Assembly (NCBI GenBank): GCA_026981985.1
Contig: JALSHZ010000136.1
Coordinates: 1-40,005, forward strand
Length of the DNA: 40,005 bases
DNA from: Gammaproteobacteria bacterium
GTDB taxonomy: Bacteria > Pseudomonadota > Gammaproteobacteria > UWMA-0217
Direction: 5' to 3'
The notes beneath the pieces are model-generated. The model was not told the origin of the DNA. It worked only from the letters and a program-made list of their open reading frames with translations, and searched no databases. The translations under genes were made by a program, and so were the position numbers. Positions 12,345 to 19,384 of this stretch are shown piece by piece; positions within the stretch are counted from its first letter, which is position 1, and the number at the start of each line of letters is the position of its first letter.

Positions 12345-14131
12345 TCAGCCACAGTTATCCCATCGTCGAGCATTTTCACGATGTCGTCATCGTCGGTGCG
12401 GGTGGGGCAGGGCTGCGCGCCACCCTCGGCATGGCAGCTACCGGCTTGTCCACCGCCTGCATTACCAAGGTCTTTCCCACCCGCAGCCACACCGTGGCGG
12501 CCCAGGGCGGCATTTCCGCCGCACTCGGCAATATGGGTGAAGACAGCTGGCAGTGGCATATGTACGACACCGTCAAGGGCTCCGACTGGCTCGGTGATCA
12601 GGACGCCATCGAATACATGTGCCGCGAGGCCATTCCAGCTGTCATCGAGTTGGAGCATTTCGGTGTCCCGTTTTCGCGCACCGAGGATGGACGCATCTAT
12701 CAGCGTCCTTTTGGCGGCATGACGACGCACAATGGCGAAGGCGTCGCCCAGCGTACCTGTGCCGCCGCCGACCGCACTGGCCATGCGATTCTACACACGC
12801 TGTACCAGCAGTCGCTCAAGCATGGCGCCGAGTTCTACATCGAATATGTGGTCATCGACCTGCTGATGGATGATGGTGTCTGCAAAGGCGTGCTGGCCTG
12901 GGATCTGGCCGGCGGCACGCTGCACCGGTTTCGCGGTCATCGAGTTGTGCTGGCCACCGGCGGGGCAGGGCGCTGCTACTTCTCCGCCACCTCGGCGCAT
13001 ACCTGCACTGGCGATGGCAACGCCATGGTGCTGCGCGCCGGGCTGCCATTGCAGGACATGGAATTTGTCCAGTTCCACCCCACCGGCGTGTATGGCGCTG
13101 GTGTCCTGATCACCGAGGGCGTGCGCGGCGAGGGCGGCTATCTGACCAACGCCGATGGCGAGCGTTTCATGGAACGCTATGCGCCGAATGCCAAGGACCT
13201 CGCCTCGCGCGATGTCGTCTCACGGGCGATGACGTTGGAGATCAATGCTGGTCGCGGTGTCGGGCCGCACAAGGATCATCTGCATCTCAATTTGATGCAC
13301 CTCGGGCGTGAGGTGATCGACGAACGCCTGCCGGGCATCGCCGAAAGCGCGCGAATTTTCGGTGGTGTCGATGTTACCCGCGAGCCGATCCCGGTGCTGC
13401 CGACGGTTCATTACAACATGGGCGGTATTCCCACCAATCACCACGGCGAAGTCGTCTGTCCGCAAGATGGGGAGTCAGAGGCCGTCGTGCCGGGGCTGAT
13501 GGCCATCGGCGAAGGCGCTTGCGTCTCGGTCCACGGTGCCAATCGGCTTGGCTCCAATTCACTGCTGGACATTATCGTTTTTGGCCGCGCTGCTGCTTTG
13601 CGTGCTGCGGAACAGTTGCAGCCGGGTCAGCCTCACGCAGCGCTGCCGGATGCCGTTACCGACGCCGTGCTCGACCGCTTCGACCGCCTGCGTCACGCCG
13701 ATGGCGAGCATCCCACCGCCGCCATCCGTGACCGCATGCAGCGTACCATGCAGCAACACGCTGCCGTTTTTCGCAGTGGCGAAATCCTGCAGCAGGGCAT
13801 CGCTAAAATGCGTGAGATCGCCGCCGAATTTCGTGACGTGCGTGTCACCGACCGGGGCATGCAATGGAATACCGACCTGGTCGAAACGCTGGAACTGGAA
13901 AATCTGCTGCAACAAGCGCAGATCATTATCCACGGTGCCGCCAATCGAACCGAAAGCCGCGGCGGCCATGCCCGCGACGACCACCCCGACAGGGACGATG
14001 AAAACTGGATGAAACACACCCTCGCCTGGTTGCATGAATCGGGCGAGGTGCGTTTCGACTACCGCCCGGTTCACCTCTACACCCTCACCGAGGAATGCGA
14101 AGTGATACCGCCAAAAAAACGGGTGTATTGA
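12341..14131 (+). CDS. sdhA: Succinate dehydrogenase flavoprotein subunit
   Basis: SdhA oxidises succinate to fumarate with covalently bound FAD on the cytoplasmic face of complex II. The 596-residue protein has the dinucleotide-binding motif [12 protein letters not shown] and the flavin attachment segment [10 protein letters not shown] (His50). Active-site segments [15 protein letters not shown] and [11 protein letters not shown] follow, and the capping domain contains [11 protein letters not shown]. The start is GTG 12341, overlapping sdhD; the frame stays open upstream, but that part is the sdhD coding region. FAD attachment should depend on SdhE at 1855. The stop shares a base with the sdhB ATG. 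Confidence 0.96.
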
Positions 14132-14907
14132 TGGCTGAATTCCGCCTCCCCGCCAATTCCGTGGTCAAGCCGGGAAAAACCTGGCCTGCGCCTGACAACG
14201 CAAAAAATATCCGCCGCGTCATCGTCTATCGCTATGATCCCGAAGACGAGCAAAATCCCCGCACCGATACCTACACGATCGACATCGACCACTGCGGCCC
14301 GATGGTGCTCGACGCACTGCTGAAAATAAAAAACGAGATCGACCCGACGCTGGCGCTGCGACGCTCCTGCCGCGAAGGCATCTGCGGCTCCTGTGCGATG
14401 AATATCGATGGCCGCAACACCCTGGCCTGCACCAAACCCATTGCCGATATTGCCGGTGACATCAAAATCTATCCGCTACCCCACCAACCGATCATCAAGG
14501 ATCTGGTTTCCGATCTCGACAACTTCTATCGCCAATACGCCTCGGTAGAACCGTGGCTGAAAAATGATGCGCCAGCCCCTGAACGCGAACGGCGCCAGAG
14601 CGTCGAACAGCGCAAGCAACTCGACGGCCTCTACGAATGCATCCTCTGCGCCTGCTGCTCCACCAGCTGCCCCAGCTACTGGTGGAACCCCGATCGCTAC
14701 CTAGGCCCCGCCGCCCTGCTCAACGCCTGGCGCTGGATCGCCGACTCCCGTGACGACGCCAGCCAACAACGCCTCCAAGCCCTAGACGACCCCTTCAAAC
14801 TCTACCGCTGCCACACCATCATGAACTGCACCGACGCCTGCCCCAAAGGACTTAACCCCGCCAAAGCGATTGCGGAAATCAAGAAGAAGTTGGTGCTGAA
14901 AGAGTGA
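14131..14907 (+). CDS. sdhB: Succinate dehydrogenase iron-sulfur subunit
   Basis: SdhB carries electrons from FAD to quinone through three clusters. The 258-residue protein shows the [2Fe-2S] ligands [10 protein letters not shown] with Cys100 (Cys80, 85, 88, 100), the [4Fe-4S] motif [12 protein letters not shown] (Cys170-180), and the [3Fe-4S] motif with Cys227, Cys233 and CPKG (Cys237). It is slightly longer than E. coli SdhB because of an extra N-terminal stretch of about 20 residues before [13 protein letters not shown] 14131 directly overlaps the sdhA stop. It is the last gene of the zapE-sdhCDAB chain; a weak hairpin without T-run follows at 14911-14938. Confidence 0.95.
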
Positions 14908-14997
14908 CACCAGCCTCCCGAGTCGGATTGGAAGGCTGATCTAGCATCGTTTAGTATAGAGTTTTACCGTAATAACAGCTGATCGGGCAGGTGTCGA

Positions 14998-15024
14998 GTT
15001 AGGGGTGTTCGTTGTAGAGGGAGG
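14998..15024 (+). other. Cassette-junction-like leader before mrr
   Basis: GTTAGGG at 14998-15004 is followed by GTGTTCGTTGTAGAGGG. The same arrangement, GTTAGGC then GTAAATTGTAGAGGG, follows the attC-like site at 16061. The shared leader before mrr and before hicA suggests both entered by the same recombination route. No full attC or attI is recognisable upstream; TAATAAC lies 25 nt before it. Confidence 0.35.
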
Positions 15025-15105
15025 GGCTGCTGAAGAGATTCTCAGGATTCAGGTGTGGTTGTCGAGAGACTTAAGAATGATTTGTTGTGCCCTAAAAGGA
15101 AAGAC

Positions 15106-15975
15106 ATGAAAGAAATTCCTACATTCGATTCGCTGATGAATCCACTACTGAAAGCACTCAGTCAGTTGGGTGGTTCAGGGTCAATCGATGAAATATACGA
15201 AAAGGTTGCGGAGATAGAAGATATTGGCGAGGAAATACTATCTGTTCCTCATAATCCTGAGAAAAGCAATCAAACGGAAGTGGCTTATCGGTTGGCATGG
15301 GCTAGAACATATCTCAGAAAATACGGCTTTCTTGAAAATTCAAGCAGGGGAATCTGGACGCTCACGCAAAAGGCAAAAAAAGAAAAGGAAGTTTCGCCAG
15401 AAAAGGTACTCAAATATGTTCGGGCGCTGGATAAAAAAGAACCCAACCAAAAAAAGAAAAGAGCGGGCGCGAATATTGAATTAGCCGATAACGAATCTCC
15501 GGAAGAAGCGAAAGTATGGAGAGAGGAATTACACCACCTTCTTACGAAGGAAATTAGTCCTGATGCTTTTGAGCGTCTTACGCAAAGGCTTCTAAGAGAA
15601 TCGGGATTCGTTCAAGTGGAAGTTACTGGAAAGACTGGAGATGGCGGAATAGATGGCAAAGGTATAGCTAGAATAAATGGTTTAATGAGTTTCCACGTCA
15701 TTTTTCAATGTAAAAAATACCAAGGTTCTGTTTCCGCTGGTGCAATTAGAGATTTTCGTGGGGCAATGGTTGGTAGAGCAGATAAAGGGCTTTTCATTAC
15801 AACTGGAACATTTACCCCGGCCGCAATCAAGGAGGCCACCAGAGATGGTGCGCCACCTGTAGATTTAGTTGATGGTGAGAATTTAGCTGAAAAGCTAAAG
15901 GAGTTAAATCTTGGGGTGCAAACAGAAATGGTAGAGAAAGTGAGTATTGATAGGCAGTGGTTTCTGAATCTATAA
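15106..15975 (+). CDS. mrr: Mrr-type (type IV) restriction endonuclease
   Basis: Mrr enzymes cut modified foreign DNA. The 289-residue protein has the winged-helix Mrr N-terminal domain (about residues 5-88) and, after a Lys-rich linker (108-120), the Mrr catalytic domain (about 150-260). The nuclease signature is GDGGIDGKG (Asp183) followed by FQCKK (Gln201-x-Lys203). ATG 15106 has AAGGAAAG just upstream and is preferred over the in-frame GTG at 15055. The gene is markedly AT-rich beside the GC-rich sdh and acn genes, indicating horizontal acquisition. It stands without a methylase or specificity subunit, as expected for type IV. It is followed by an attC-like site and hicAB. Confidence 0.88.
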   Translation: MKEIPTFDSLMNPLLKALSQLGGSGSIDEIYEKVAEIEDIGEEILSVPHNPEKSNQTEVAYRLAWARTYLRKYGFLENSSRGIWTLTQKAKKEKEVSPEKVLKYVRALDKKEPNQKKKRAGANIELADNESPEEAKVWREELHHLLTKEISPDAFERLTQRLLRESGFVQVEVTGKTGDGGIDGKGIARINGLMSFHVIFQCKKYQGSVSAGAIRDFRGAMVGRADKGLFITTGTFTPAAIKEATRDGAPPVDLVDGENLAEKLKELNLGVQTEMVEKVSIDRQWFLNL

Positions 15976-15978
15976 ATG

Positions 15979-16067
15979 GCATAACAATCTAAATGCGCTC
16001 GGACGTAAAAAAGAGCCGATTTGTTTTTCGCGCTGCTTTTTGTCGTTGCTGATTTGCGGCGTTAGGC
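15979..16067 (+). other. Integron attC-like recombination site
   Basis: The site runs from GCATAAC (15979-15985, R''-like) to GTTAGGC (16061-16067, matching the attC core GTTRRRY). The outer heptamers are complementary at 6 of 7 positions. Inside the left end, TAACAATCTAAATGCGC then TCGGACG resembles the usual TAACAA...CGGACG start of attC sites. The interior pairing is imperfect, and no integrase is in the window. Length (89 bp) is within the attC range. Confidence 0.45.
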
Positions 16068-16104
16068 GTAAATTGTAGAGGGTTAGGGGATCAGGAATTG
16101 CCAA

Positions 16105-16365
16105 ATGGGAAAGTACTCAAGACTCAGAGAAAAAATACTGTCAGGAAGTGCAGATGGCAATATCTATTTTTCTGCTTTGTGTCATTTGCTGATGCGCTTA
16201 GGTTTCAACGAGCGCGTAAAGGGTGGGCATCATATTTTCACCCATGATGATGTGGATGAGATTATCAATTTGCAGCCTAAAGGCAGCAAGTCCAAACCGT
16301 ACCAGATCAAACAGGTAAGAATGATTCTAGTGAAATATCATTTGGGAGAGAGCAATGTCGATTAA
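16105..16365 (+). CDS. hicA: HicA-family mRNA interferase toxin
   Basis: HicA toxins are small double-stranded-RNA-binding-fold RNases that cleave mRNA and stop translation when not bound by HicB. The 86-residue protein has the fold's order: KILSGSADGNIYFSALCHLL, LGFNERVKGGHHIF with the catalytic His (His42/His43), INLQPKG, and YQIKQVRMILVKYHL. GGA lies about 8 nt before ATG 16105. Its 3' end overlaps hicB by 11 nt, the usual toxin-antitoxin coupling. Together with mrr it forms an AT-rich defence or stability islet between sdhB and acnB. Confidence 0.88.
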   Translation: MGKYSRLREKILSGSADGNIYFSALCHLLMRLGFNERVKGGHHIFTHDDVDEIINLQPKGSKSKPYQIKQVRMILVKYHLGESNVD

Positions 16366-16567
16366 GTATGAGTTAATTGTTTACTGGAGCGAAGAGGATC
16401 AGTCGTTTGTGGTTGAGGTTCCCGAGTTGCCAGGATGCATGGCTGATGGAGAGAGCTATGAGCAAGCAGTAGCCAATGCTCAGTTGGTTATTGAGCAATG
16501 GATAGAGACCGCGAAGGAACTTGGCCGCAAGGTGCCGGAGCCAAGGGGTCGGCTTATGTATGCATAA
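16355..16567 (+). CDS. hicB: HicB-family antitoxin
   Basis: The 70-residue protein is the compact form of HicB: YELIVYWSEEDQSFVVEVPELPGCMADGE, with the PELPGC hallmark, followed by a helix (SYEQAVANAQLVIEQWIETA). It should bind and inhibit HicA. No C-terminal DNA-binding domain is visible after residue 62, so autoregulation by this protein alone is doubtful. It overlaps hicA by 11 nt. The next 200 bases before the acnB stop hold no gene and no second attC that I can recognise. Confidence 0.88.
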   Translation: MSIKYELIVYWSEEDQSFVVEVPELPGCMADGESYEQAVANAQLVIEQWIETAKELGRKVPEPRGRLMYA

Positions 16568-16676
16568 GGAATCATTCTAGCCGACACAGTAAAATGCGCG
16601 GCTGGGTTTAGTTGCTGGCGGAGGTCTCGGGGGGGGCAGGTCTTGATCAAGCGCATGATTCCCCGCCCGGTGGTTT

Positions 16677-16693
16677 GCCGGCAGGATGCCGGC
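16677..16693. repeat. GCCGGC hairpin
   Basis: GCCGGC, loop AGGAT, GCCGGC forms a 6-bp stem downstream of acnB (and of hicB on the other strand). There is no T-run, so it is more likely a REP-like hairpin than an intrinsic terminator. Confidence 0.4.
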
Positions 16694-16771
16694 GGTCCCA
16701 GGGGCGTTTTCTTTGAGGGTGTCGTATTTAGCTGAACTTTTGTGCCGTGATACTTGGATCGCCTGTCGTTG

Positions 16772-19384
16772 TCAGACCACTGCTTCGATCGGGATGACTT
16801 TCCTGGCGGCTTCCTGGTAGCTGTCGATCTGGTCGAAGTTGAGGTAGCGGTAGACGTCGGCGGCCATGGTGTCGATTTTTTCTGCGTATTCCATGTATTC
16901 ATCGAAACTGGGGATGCGGCCGATGATGGCTGCGACGGCGGCCAGTTCGGCGGAGGCGAGGAAGACATCGGCGTTGTCGCCGAGGCGGTTGGGGAAGTTG
17001 CGGGTGGAGGTGGAGACGACGGTGCTGTTCGGTGCGACGCGGGCCTGGTTGCCCATGCACAGCGAGCAGCCGGGTACTTCGGTGCGGGCGCCGGCGCGGC
17101 CGAAGATGCTGTAGTAGCCTTCTTCGATCAGTTGCTGCTCGTCCATTTTGGTCGGCGGTACGATCCACAGCCGGGTGGGTACAGCGCCACTGGTTTGTTC
17201 GAACATCTTACCGGCAGCGCGGAAGTGGCCGATGTTGGTCATGCAGGAGCCGATGAAGACTTCGTCGATGCCGCGCCCGGCGACTGCTGACAGTGGTTTG
17301 ATGTCGTCCGGGTCGTTGGGGCAGGCGAGCAGCGGTTCGGTGATCTCGCTCATGTCGATTTCGATGACTTCGGCATATTCGGCATCGGCGTCGGCTTGCA
17401 TCAGTTCAGGATTTTCCAGCCAGGCCTGCATTTTGTCGATGCGCCGCTGGATGGTGCGGGCGTCGCCATAGCCACTGGCCAGCATCCATTTGAGCATGAC
17501 GACATTCGAGTTGAGGTACTCGATGATCGGTTCCTTGTCGAGCTTGATTGTGCAGCCGGCGGCGGAGCGTTCGGCCGATGCATCGGACAGTTCAAAGGCC
17601 TGTTCGACCTTCAGTTTCGGCAATCCTTCGATTTCCAGAATGCGACCGGAGAAGACGTTTTTCTTGCCTTCCTTGGCCACGGTCAGCAGCCCTTTCTGGA
17701 TGGCCGCGTAGGGAATGGCGTTGACCAGGTCGCGCAGCGTGATGCCGGGCTGCATTTCACCCTTGAAGCGCACCAGCACCGATTCCGGCATGTCCAGCGG
17801 CATGACGCCGGTGGCTGCGGCAAAGGCGACCAGCCCGGAACCGGCCGGGAAGGAGATGCCGATCGGGAAGCGGGTGTGGGAGTCGCCGCCGGTGCCGACG
17901 GTGTCGGGCAGCAGCATACGGTTGAGCCAGGAGTGGATGACGCCATCGCCGGGGCGCAGCGAGATGCCACCGCGGTTCATGATGAAGTCGGGCAGCGTAT
18001 GCTGGGTGTCCACGTCCACTGGCTTGGGGTAGGCGGCGGTGTGACAGAACGACTGCATTACCAGGTCAGCGGAAAAGCCGAGGCAGGCGAGATCCTTCAG
18101 CTCGTCGCGGGTCATCGGCCCAGTGGTGTCCTGCGAGCCGACGGTGGCCATCTGCGGTTCACAGTACATGCCCGGGCGCACGCCCTCCATGCCGCAGGCC
18201 TTGCCGACGATCTTTTGCGCCAGGGTAAAGCCCTTGCTGCTTTGTGCCGGCGTTTCCGGTGTGCGGAACAGGGTCGACGGTGGCAGGCCGAGCGCTTCGC
18301 GGGCGCGTGCGGTCAGCGCGCGGCCAATGATCAGCGGAATACGGCCACCCGCACGAACTTCGTCGAGAATGACATTGGGTTTGAGCTTGAACTGGCTGAT
18401 GACTTCGTCGCTGTCGTGACGTTTGACCACGCCTTCATAGGGATAGATGTCGATGACATCGCCCGTTTCCATTTTCGATACGTCCAGCTCGATTGGCAGC
18501 GCACCGGCGTCTTCCATTGTGTTGAAAAAGATCGGTGCGATCTTGCCGCCCAGGCAGTAGCCGCCGGCGCGTTTGTTGGGGATATGCGGAATATCGTGTC
18601 CCATGTGCCACAGTACGGAGTTGGTGGCCGATTTGCGTGACGAGCCGGTGCCGACCACATCGCCGACATAGGCCAGCGGATAGCCTTTTTCCTTGAGCTT
18701 TGCGATGGTGCTGATCGGGCCGATCTCGCCCGGCTTGTCCGGGGTGATGCCGTCGCGCGGCATTTTCAGCATGGCCAGCGCGTGCAGCGGAATATCAGGC
18801 CGCGACCAGGCATCCGGGGCTGGGGAGAGGTCGTCGGTATTGGTCTCGCCGGGAACCTTGAACACCGTGACGGTAATTTTTTCCGGCAGCTCGTCTTTAG
18901 AGGTAAACCACTCGCCCTCGGCCCAGGACTCCAGAACCCGCTGTGCATGCGGGTTGCCAGCATCAGCCTTTTCCTTCACATCATGGAAGGCGTCGAAGAT
19001 CAGTAACGTGTGGGACAGCGCGTCAGCCGCTTTGGATGCCAGCGCGTCGTCGTCGAGACACTGGATCAGCGGCTCGATATTGTAACCACCCAGCATGGTG
19101 CCCAGCAGTTCGACCGCTTTTTCCTTGTCGATCAGCGGTGATTCGGCCTCGCCACGGGTAATGGCGGCAAGAAACCCAGCCTTCACATAGGCGGCTTCGT
19201 CCACACCGGCCGGCACCCGATCGCTCAACAGTTCGAGCAGAAATGCCTCTTCGCCAGCGGGTGGCTGCTTCAGCAGTTCGACCAGGTCGGCGGTTTGCGT
19301 GGCGTTGAGCGGCAGCGGCGGAATACCCTTGGCTTCACGTTCGGCGGCATGGGCGCGGTAGGTTTCAAGCATGTTTGTGGTCAT
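16772..19384 (-). CDS. acnB: Aconitate hydratase B
   Basis: AcnB isomerises citrate to isocitrate in the TCA cycle. At 870 residues it has the AcnB size and order: an N-terminal HEAT-like domain (about 1-160), the swivel domain ([34 protein letters not shown]), then the catalytic domains. Cluster ligands lie in [12 protein letters not shown] and in [11 protein letters not shown]; active-site segments include [11 protein letters not shown]. The start ATG at 19384 gives [12 protein letters not shown], the usual N-terminus. In other bacteria iron-free AcnB binds mRNA, so a regulatory role is possible but not visible here. It is separated from gltA by a 339-bp repeat-bearing gap and probably has its own promoter. 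Confidence 0.96.

Follow-up and report, generated by a model that had tools for sequence, protein, structure and literature searches.

We interpret the AT-rich islet between sdhB and acnB as a two-cassette CALIN, with an mrr cassette (15085-16061) followed by a hicAB cassette (16062-16611), stranded away from the integron platform of its own genome, a reading to which we give a probability of roughly 0.8. The window, which is the whole 40,005-nucleotide contig C136 of a 3.35-Mb draft genome (G000; 149 contigs), holds the two loci at 42-44% GC within surroundings of about 56-62% GC, such that base composition and the profile matches of the flanking genes (Table 1) agree with the setting that a preliminary description, made from the letters of the window, had proposed. 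Because sdhB and acnB both flank the islet on one contig, unbroken from sdhB through the islet to acnB, its isolation is not a contig-end artefact; passages of PMC9024848 describe how draft assemblies split integrons and so inflate CALIN counts.

Table 1. Features of the islet and its chromosomal flanks (window positions).
Feature	Position	Strand	Basis
sdhB, left chromosomal flank	14095..14907	+	NF004616 372.8 bits, cut-off 228
Most likely left junction of the mrr cassette, G/TTGTGC, cassette from 15085	15084..15090	+	end match, suggestive
Gene cassette 1: 21-bp leader, mrr, attC	15085..16061	+	
mrr, Mrr-family (type IV) restriction endonuclease, 289 aa	15106..15975	+	PF04471 + PF14338
attC of cassette 1, worn; crossover expected G16061/T16062	15979..16067	+	score, alignment (A2) with four array attCs
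Probable gene cassette 2: 43-bp leader, hicA, hicB, decayed attC	16062..16611	+	
hicA toxin (mRNA interferase family), 86 aa	16105..16365	+	PF07927 25.3 bits, E 1.6e-5
hicB antitoxin, short form, 70 aa	16355..16567	+	PF15919 44.7 bits
Probable decayed attC of cassette 2; R' = G16611 + chromosomal TTGCTG	16562..16617	+	left-half profile, alignment
acnB, right chromosomal flank	16772..19384	-	TIGR00117 1560 bits

Evaluating the cargo genes, we found both domains of Mrr type IV enzymes in the mrr product (Mrr_cat, 107.5 bits; Mrr_N, 68 bits), together with PADLOC matches to mREase_IV (83.5 bits) and PDC-S02 (up to 93.8 bits) and, by eye, the motif TGDGGIDG...QCKKY. We took its start as the ATG at 15106, while the open reading frame list begins the gene at a GTG at 15055. 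The hicA and hicB genes are adjacent with an 11-bp overlap and carry HicA and HicB domains, the HicA score being just under the Pfam cut-off of 27; we keep the name hicA despite this weak score because position and relatives in other genomes (66% and 62%) agree with it, and HicB matches a solved HicB (6g1c, E 0.0024). Mrr is probably a modification-dependent DNA cutter and HicAB probably a toxin-antitoxin pair.

The evidence for integron ancestry centers on the 89-bp site between the two loci, which starts 4 bp past the mrr stop and ends in GTTAGGC. To score such sites, we collected 80 integron-integrase loci and selected 31 of 53 scan hits, by eye, as array attCs for training; the resulting scorer uses the two R boxes (R'' and R'), the pairing of the L boxes and the GAC motif. 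The site scored 32.9, the best in the 40-kb window (next non-overlapping place, 20.4) and in the upper half of the training attCs (range 21-41), and all of 25 order-1 Markov windows stayed below it (best scores 13.3 to 25.2). Among 1.85 million control strand-bases a single place exceeded 32.9; it lies in an integron locus (L120) and resembles a real attC, as do several lower-scoring hits of that locus, so the control is not a clean one. Taken by halves, the site ranks first (right) and third (left) among about 80,000 window positions. Its R''/R' boxes (GCATAAC / GTTAGGC) pair at 6 of 7 positions and fit RYYYAAC / GTTRRRY except for the third base of R'', which is A where the consensus has Y, and its L''/L' boxes also pair at 6 of 7, with spacers of 4/4.

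The strongest evidence is homology to attCs in arrays. Four of 85 library attCs align with the site over its full length, with identities over ungapped columns of 75.9% (L056_1515), 79.3% (G003 C175:3006-3088), 71.3% (L118_1936) and 72.0% (L124_949); three of these come from intI loci (L056, L118, L124) and the fourth from an array in a genome of the same family. The best alignment scored 92.5, and none of 500 shuffled cores with ends kept was as good (highest score, 62). The five-sequence alignment has a shared stem with 4 pairs changed on both sides; 87.9% of its cells are paired, a share that falls to 51.5% or less when the stem partners are slid. In the shuffle control of this stem, 4 of 500 shuffles matched or exceeded the covariation score, 58 the paired cells and 180 the two-sided-change pairs, so that this control is not decisive for the latter two; as for further pair types, 493 of the 500 had at least as many. 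A blastn search against plasmids yielded no attC relative and no useful close DNA relative of either site or of the hicAB piece. Judged by sequence, then, 15979-16067 is a real integron attC.

It is also a worn one. The stem kept in the homologues is weakened at several pairs in the window copy: in this sequence only, columns 20/72 form C-C and columns 19, 23 and 24 form G-U, positions at which the homologues have Watson-Crick pairs, and we read these differences as decay. A stable bottom-strand hairpin was not found at the site, 145 of 200 dinucleotide shuffles folding equally well; with simple shuffles its fold z was -0.89, a value lower in 28 of the 31 training attCs and weaker still in 3. 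A covariance model (R1) built from 21 array attCs gave 14.2 bits, the top match of the window, with E-values of 0.16 in the window and 0.92 over 19 sources, and a genome-wide run of R1 did not return the site. For scale, array-strand hits go as low as about 11 bits among the 67 R1 matches in the 19 sources. Homology to array attCs can thus rescue a site that a covariance model places near noise.

To locate the left end of the mrr cassette, we used an end-match rule, under which the leading end of a cassette is the reverse complement of its own R''. Across 34 consecutive array attC pairs, 28 agreed at all 4 variable positions and 33 at 3 or more, against 7% at 4/4 and 39% at 3 or 4 in mis-paired controls. 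The R'' of the mrr attC predicts a leading end of GTTATGC, and 15084, which lies 21 bp ahead of the mrr ATG, is the sole 3/4 match among 21 GNT positions in 14905-15106. This one fit among 21 tries is suggestive of a left end at 15084/15085. The boundary at 14999 that was proposed earlier for a cassette running to 16061 fails the rule, since 14998 agrees at only 2/4 whereas 33 of 34 array cassettes reach 3 or 4; used in this way, the match between leading end and own R'' can correct cassette boundaries. That boundary had drawn on a common leader, and both leaders do hold GTTAGG...TTGTAGAGGG, with a shared 10-mer at 15012-15021 and 16073-16082. Genome-wide, TTGTAGAGGG occurs 8 times against 4 for the reversed word, which is near chance, and the loci around the other six copies hold no attC scoring 20 or more; on these two counts we dropped the leader as a sign of a cassette. 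Separately, a 17-nt inverted repeat (15074-15090/16562-16578) raised the prospect of an extra attC ending at 15090, which we rejected on a best relaxed score of just 4.0.

Turning to hicAB, the attC left-half profile places 16562, at the hicB stop codon, first among the roughly 80,000 strand positions of the window (16.4 bits), and 15 of 1,834,444 control positions were as high. The stretch that begins there aligns best with a 58-bp array attC (L056_4730; score 34.2, maximum 31.7 in 500 shuffled cores, 0/500 as good). Its right half is non-canonical (rank 30,088), its R'' ends in AAG rather than AAC, and its R' is likewise non-canonical. By eye, three of the four variable positions agree between TTAGGC and the leading end predicted from this R''. 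We consider it quite probable that hicAB is a second cassette whose right end runs into the chromosome. The suggestion of a lone off-integron cassette therefore stands in part: attC homology and the unbroken contig uphold an off-integron mrr, while "lone" gives way to a probable neighbour. Against the CALIN criterion of at least two attCs with no intI nearby, the islet holds one supported site and one decayed, with intI on another contig.

That intI is full-length (TIGR02249, 476 bits; C36:82821-83756) and the single match over the cut-off in the genome, so that the earlier remark of no integrase nearby is right for the neighbourhood and wrong for the genome. Its product aligns end to end with 2a3v (E 1.4e-98), which we take to be a Vibrio integrase. 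Contig C36 ends 43 bp past the upstream end of the intI match, which leaves attI and the array unassembled. Three further strong attCs occur in the genome, on C55, C59 and C84, each at about 31 bits with R1 against 14.2 for the window site; a candidate on C69 (20.2 bits, R1) was set aside, as it is apparently coding sequence with no high score from the scorer. Of four further family members, two (G001 and G004) carry intI, and a third, G003, in which intI gave no hit, has attC arrays. In G001 and G004 (L206 and L207) we noted CTGTTAGCTG upstream of intI, shortly before the contig end, as a candidate attI core.

The surroundings of these other attCs varied. On C84 (L161, 514-1069, minus strand) the attC immediately precedes a cassette of two genes (79 and 93 aa), presumably a DUF4160/DUF2442-like pair; toward the contig end there follows, by eye, another attC-like stretch that is damaged, with chromosome on the other side and no intI seen at the locus. 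On C59 (L160, 6196-6292, minus strand) the attC is strong (33.0, fold z -10.3), sits about 245 bp from the contig end and adjoins a gene resembling, by eye, that of a glycosyltransferase; it may mark where the unassembled array ends on its distal side, or else be a further stranded cassette. At C55 (L020, 1-2057) and at a locus of G003 (L210, C175:532-2452), an IS91-type transposase (Y2_Tnp, Zn_Tnp_IS91) and a tyrosine recombinase gene adjoin an attC, the distance from recombinase start to attC being about 85 and 112 bp and the R'' boxes GTTCAAC and GTCCAAC, respectively. IS91 elements insert beside GTTC-like targets, and the element seen at these two loci may target attC sites.

The form of an attC that IntI recognises is its folded bottom strand, and the recombination partner can be attI, another attC or a genomic site. 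As to how and when the islet arose, we infer that the resident IntI or its ancestor would most likely have joined the cassettes to a chromosomal site, after which wear would have cost the mrr attC several stem pairs and the hicAB attC its canonical right side; as the sites are worn, the genes would probably now be fixed in place. Overall, the islet is probably either the work of the resident integrase or the remainder of an older array, and we lean toward direct insertion. The older-array account, in which the islet is the remnant of an ancestral integron at this position or an array piece moved by genome rearrangement with no cassette insertion, is a serious though less than even possibility. 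It is consistent with both attC sites being worn, with the proposal, in passages of PMC9024848, that CALINs are degraded integrons, and with the fate of the flanks: a search for an empty site found none in the two relatives compared, G001 and G003, where sdhB and acnB are non-adjacent (in G001, 309 bp separate sdhB from a contig end, while acnB is on a different contig, followed by another gene; in G003 they are likewise apart), a lack of conservation that fits rearrangement. Set against it is the full-length intI kept elsewhere in the genome, with none found in the islet. Extending direct insertion to the whole genome, we tentatively suggest that the resident integrase might have scattered small defence or toxin-antitoxin cassettes to several loci (here, C59, C84 and possibly C55), whose attCs decay while the cassettes become fixed defence genes; were this so, the islet would present two decay stages side by side.

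A narrower account would make mrr the sole cassette, starting at 14998/14999, and hicAB an ordinary chromosomal toxin-antitoxin locus, and here relatives elsewhere bear on the question. Of 12 other hicA loci (three of them read with 1.5-kb flanks only), one has an attC nearby: in G198 a 48% hicA relative is followed by its own attC (scan 19.0, R1 24.2 bits). Scanner-only hits of 18.7 and 19.2 in two other hicA regions were not accepted as attCs because they do not follow hicB. That hicA relatives are mostly outside arrays, and that the attC between mrr and hicAB is real, both accord with mrr as the only cassette. We nonetheless consider that account unlikely, given the G198 relative, the placement of the window's best attC left half at the hicB stop, and the poor end match of 14998 already described.

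The mrr relatives are similarly distributed. Among 369 genomes we found 4 other mrr copies, one of which has an attC near it, with the same-genome paralogue read with 1.5-kb flanks only. In G211 (L153, C191:730-2367) an Mrr relative, 37% identical, has an attC of 29.8 bits upstream of it, and a further attC-like right half (GGCGGCTTAACGTGAGCGTTTAGGC) ends, by eye, about 20 bp before the gene. No convincing attC was seen at the other three copies, including the 67% identical paralogue (L154, G000:C17, 1501-2349), which by eye lies beside a transposase-like gene and at which no attC scored. It appears that mrr and hicAB can travel as cassettes but mostly do not. The preliminary description had named two outcomes as telling against it, of which the missing attC score did not occur, while attC neighbours are indeed absent from most relatives of mrr and hicAB.

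A history with no integron at all, in which a chance palindrome separates two independently acquired genes, would account for the weak fold and low covariance-model score of the mrr attC but is very improbable beside its full-length alignment with four array attCs (equalled by none of 500 shuffles), its position 4 bp after the mrr stop and its 79% relative in an array of a same-family genome.

Comparison with known systems places the islet within familiar territory. In work by Loot et al. (2024), cassettes are reportedly inserted by the integrase at genomic attG sites, off-integron, in chromosomes; the likeness is in the off-integron chromosomal cassettes, whereas for the islet insertion is putative and an empty site was looked for in two relatives and not found. 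Genomic attG insertion is cited in parts of PMC12444791 and PMC12901181, and the former also reports that roughly half of Xanthomonas genomes have attC clusters distant from intI. Like a CALIN, the islet has chromosomal attC sites and cassette genes with no integrase nearby; it differs in having two sites only, one weak and one decayed. As default software needs two attCs to call a CALIN (according to passages of PMC9024848), the islet may go unreported by it.

The cargo has precedents as well. HicAB is described as integron cassettes in Treponema denticola (in sections of PMC4909258), the same cargo. There the antitoxin ORF has a listed size of 405 and the cassette is inside the integron; the hicB of the islet, at 213 bp, belongs to a probable off-integron cassette. 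Integron-borne phage-defence cassettes, as presented in portions of PMC12409362, include small type IV restriction genes; the shared feature is small defence genes, those being in arrays while the mrr here is stranded and its activity predicted. Because CALINs and cassettes of HicAB and type IV restriction genes have already been described, the islet fits a known arrangement, here with worn sites, and we regard it as an ordinary case among integron-bearing bacteria. Its wider interest is that single or worn attCs outside integrons easily escape standard tools and mark defence genes leaving the integron store for the chromosome.

Beyond the cassettes, an Rfam scan at gathering thresholds returned a tRNA as its sole match, and a promoter scan gave 4 matches, all on the minus strand, against 2.8 expected. 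The sequence GCGTTAGGC occurs twice in the genome, its other copy being, by eye, within coding sequence. A palindrome-like GCCGGCAGGATGCCGGCGGTCCCA is seen by eye near attC sites on three contigs of the genome (at 16660-16710 of the window, in L020 and in L157) and may be a common REP-like repeat.
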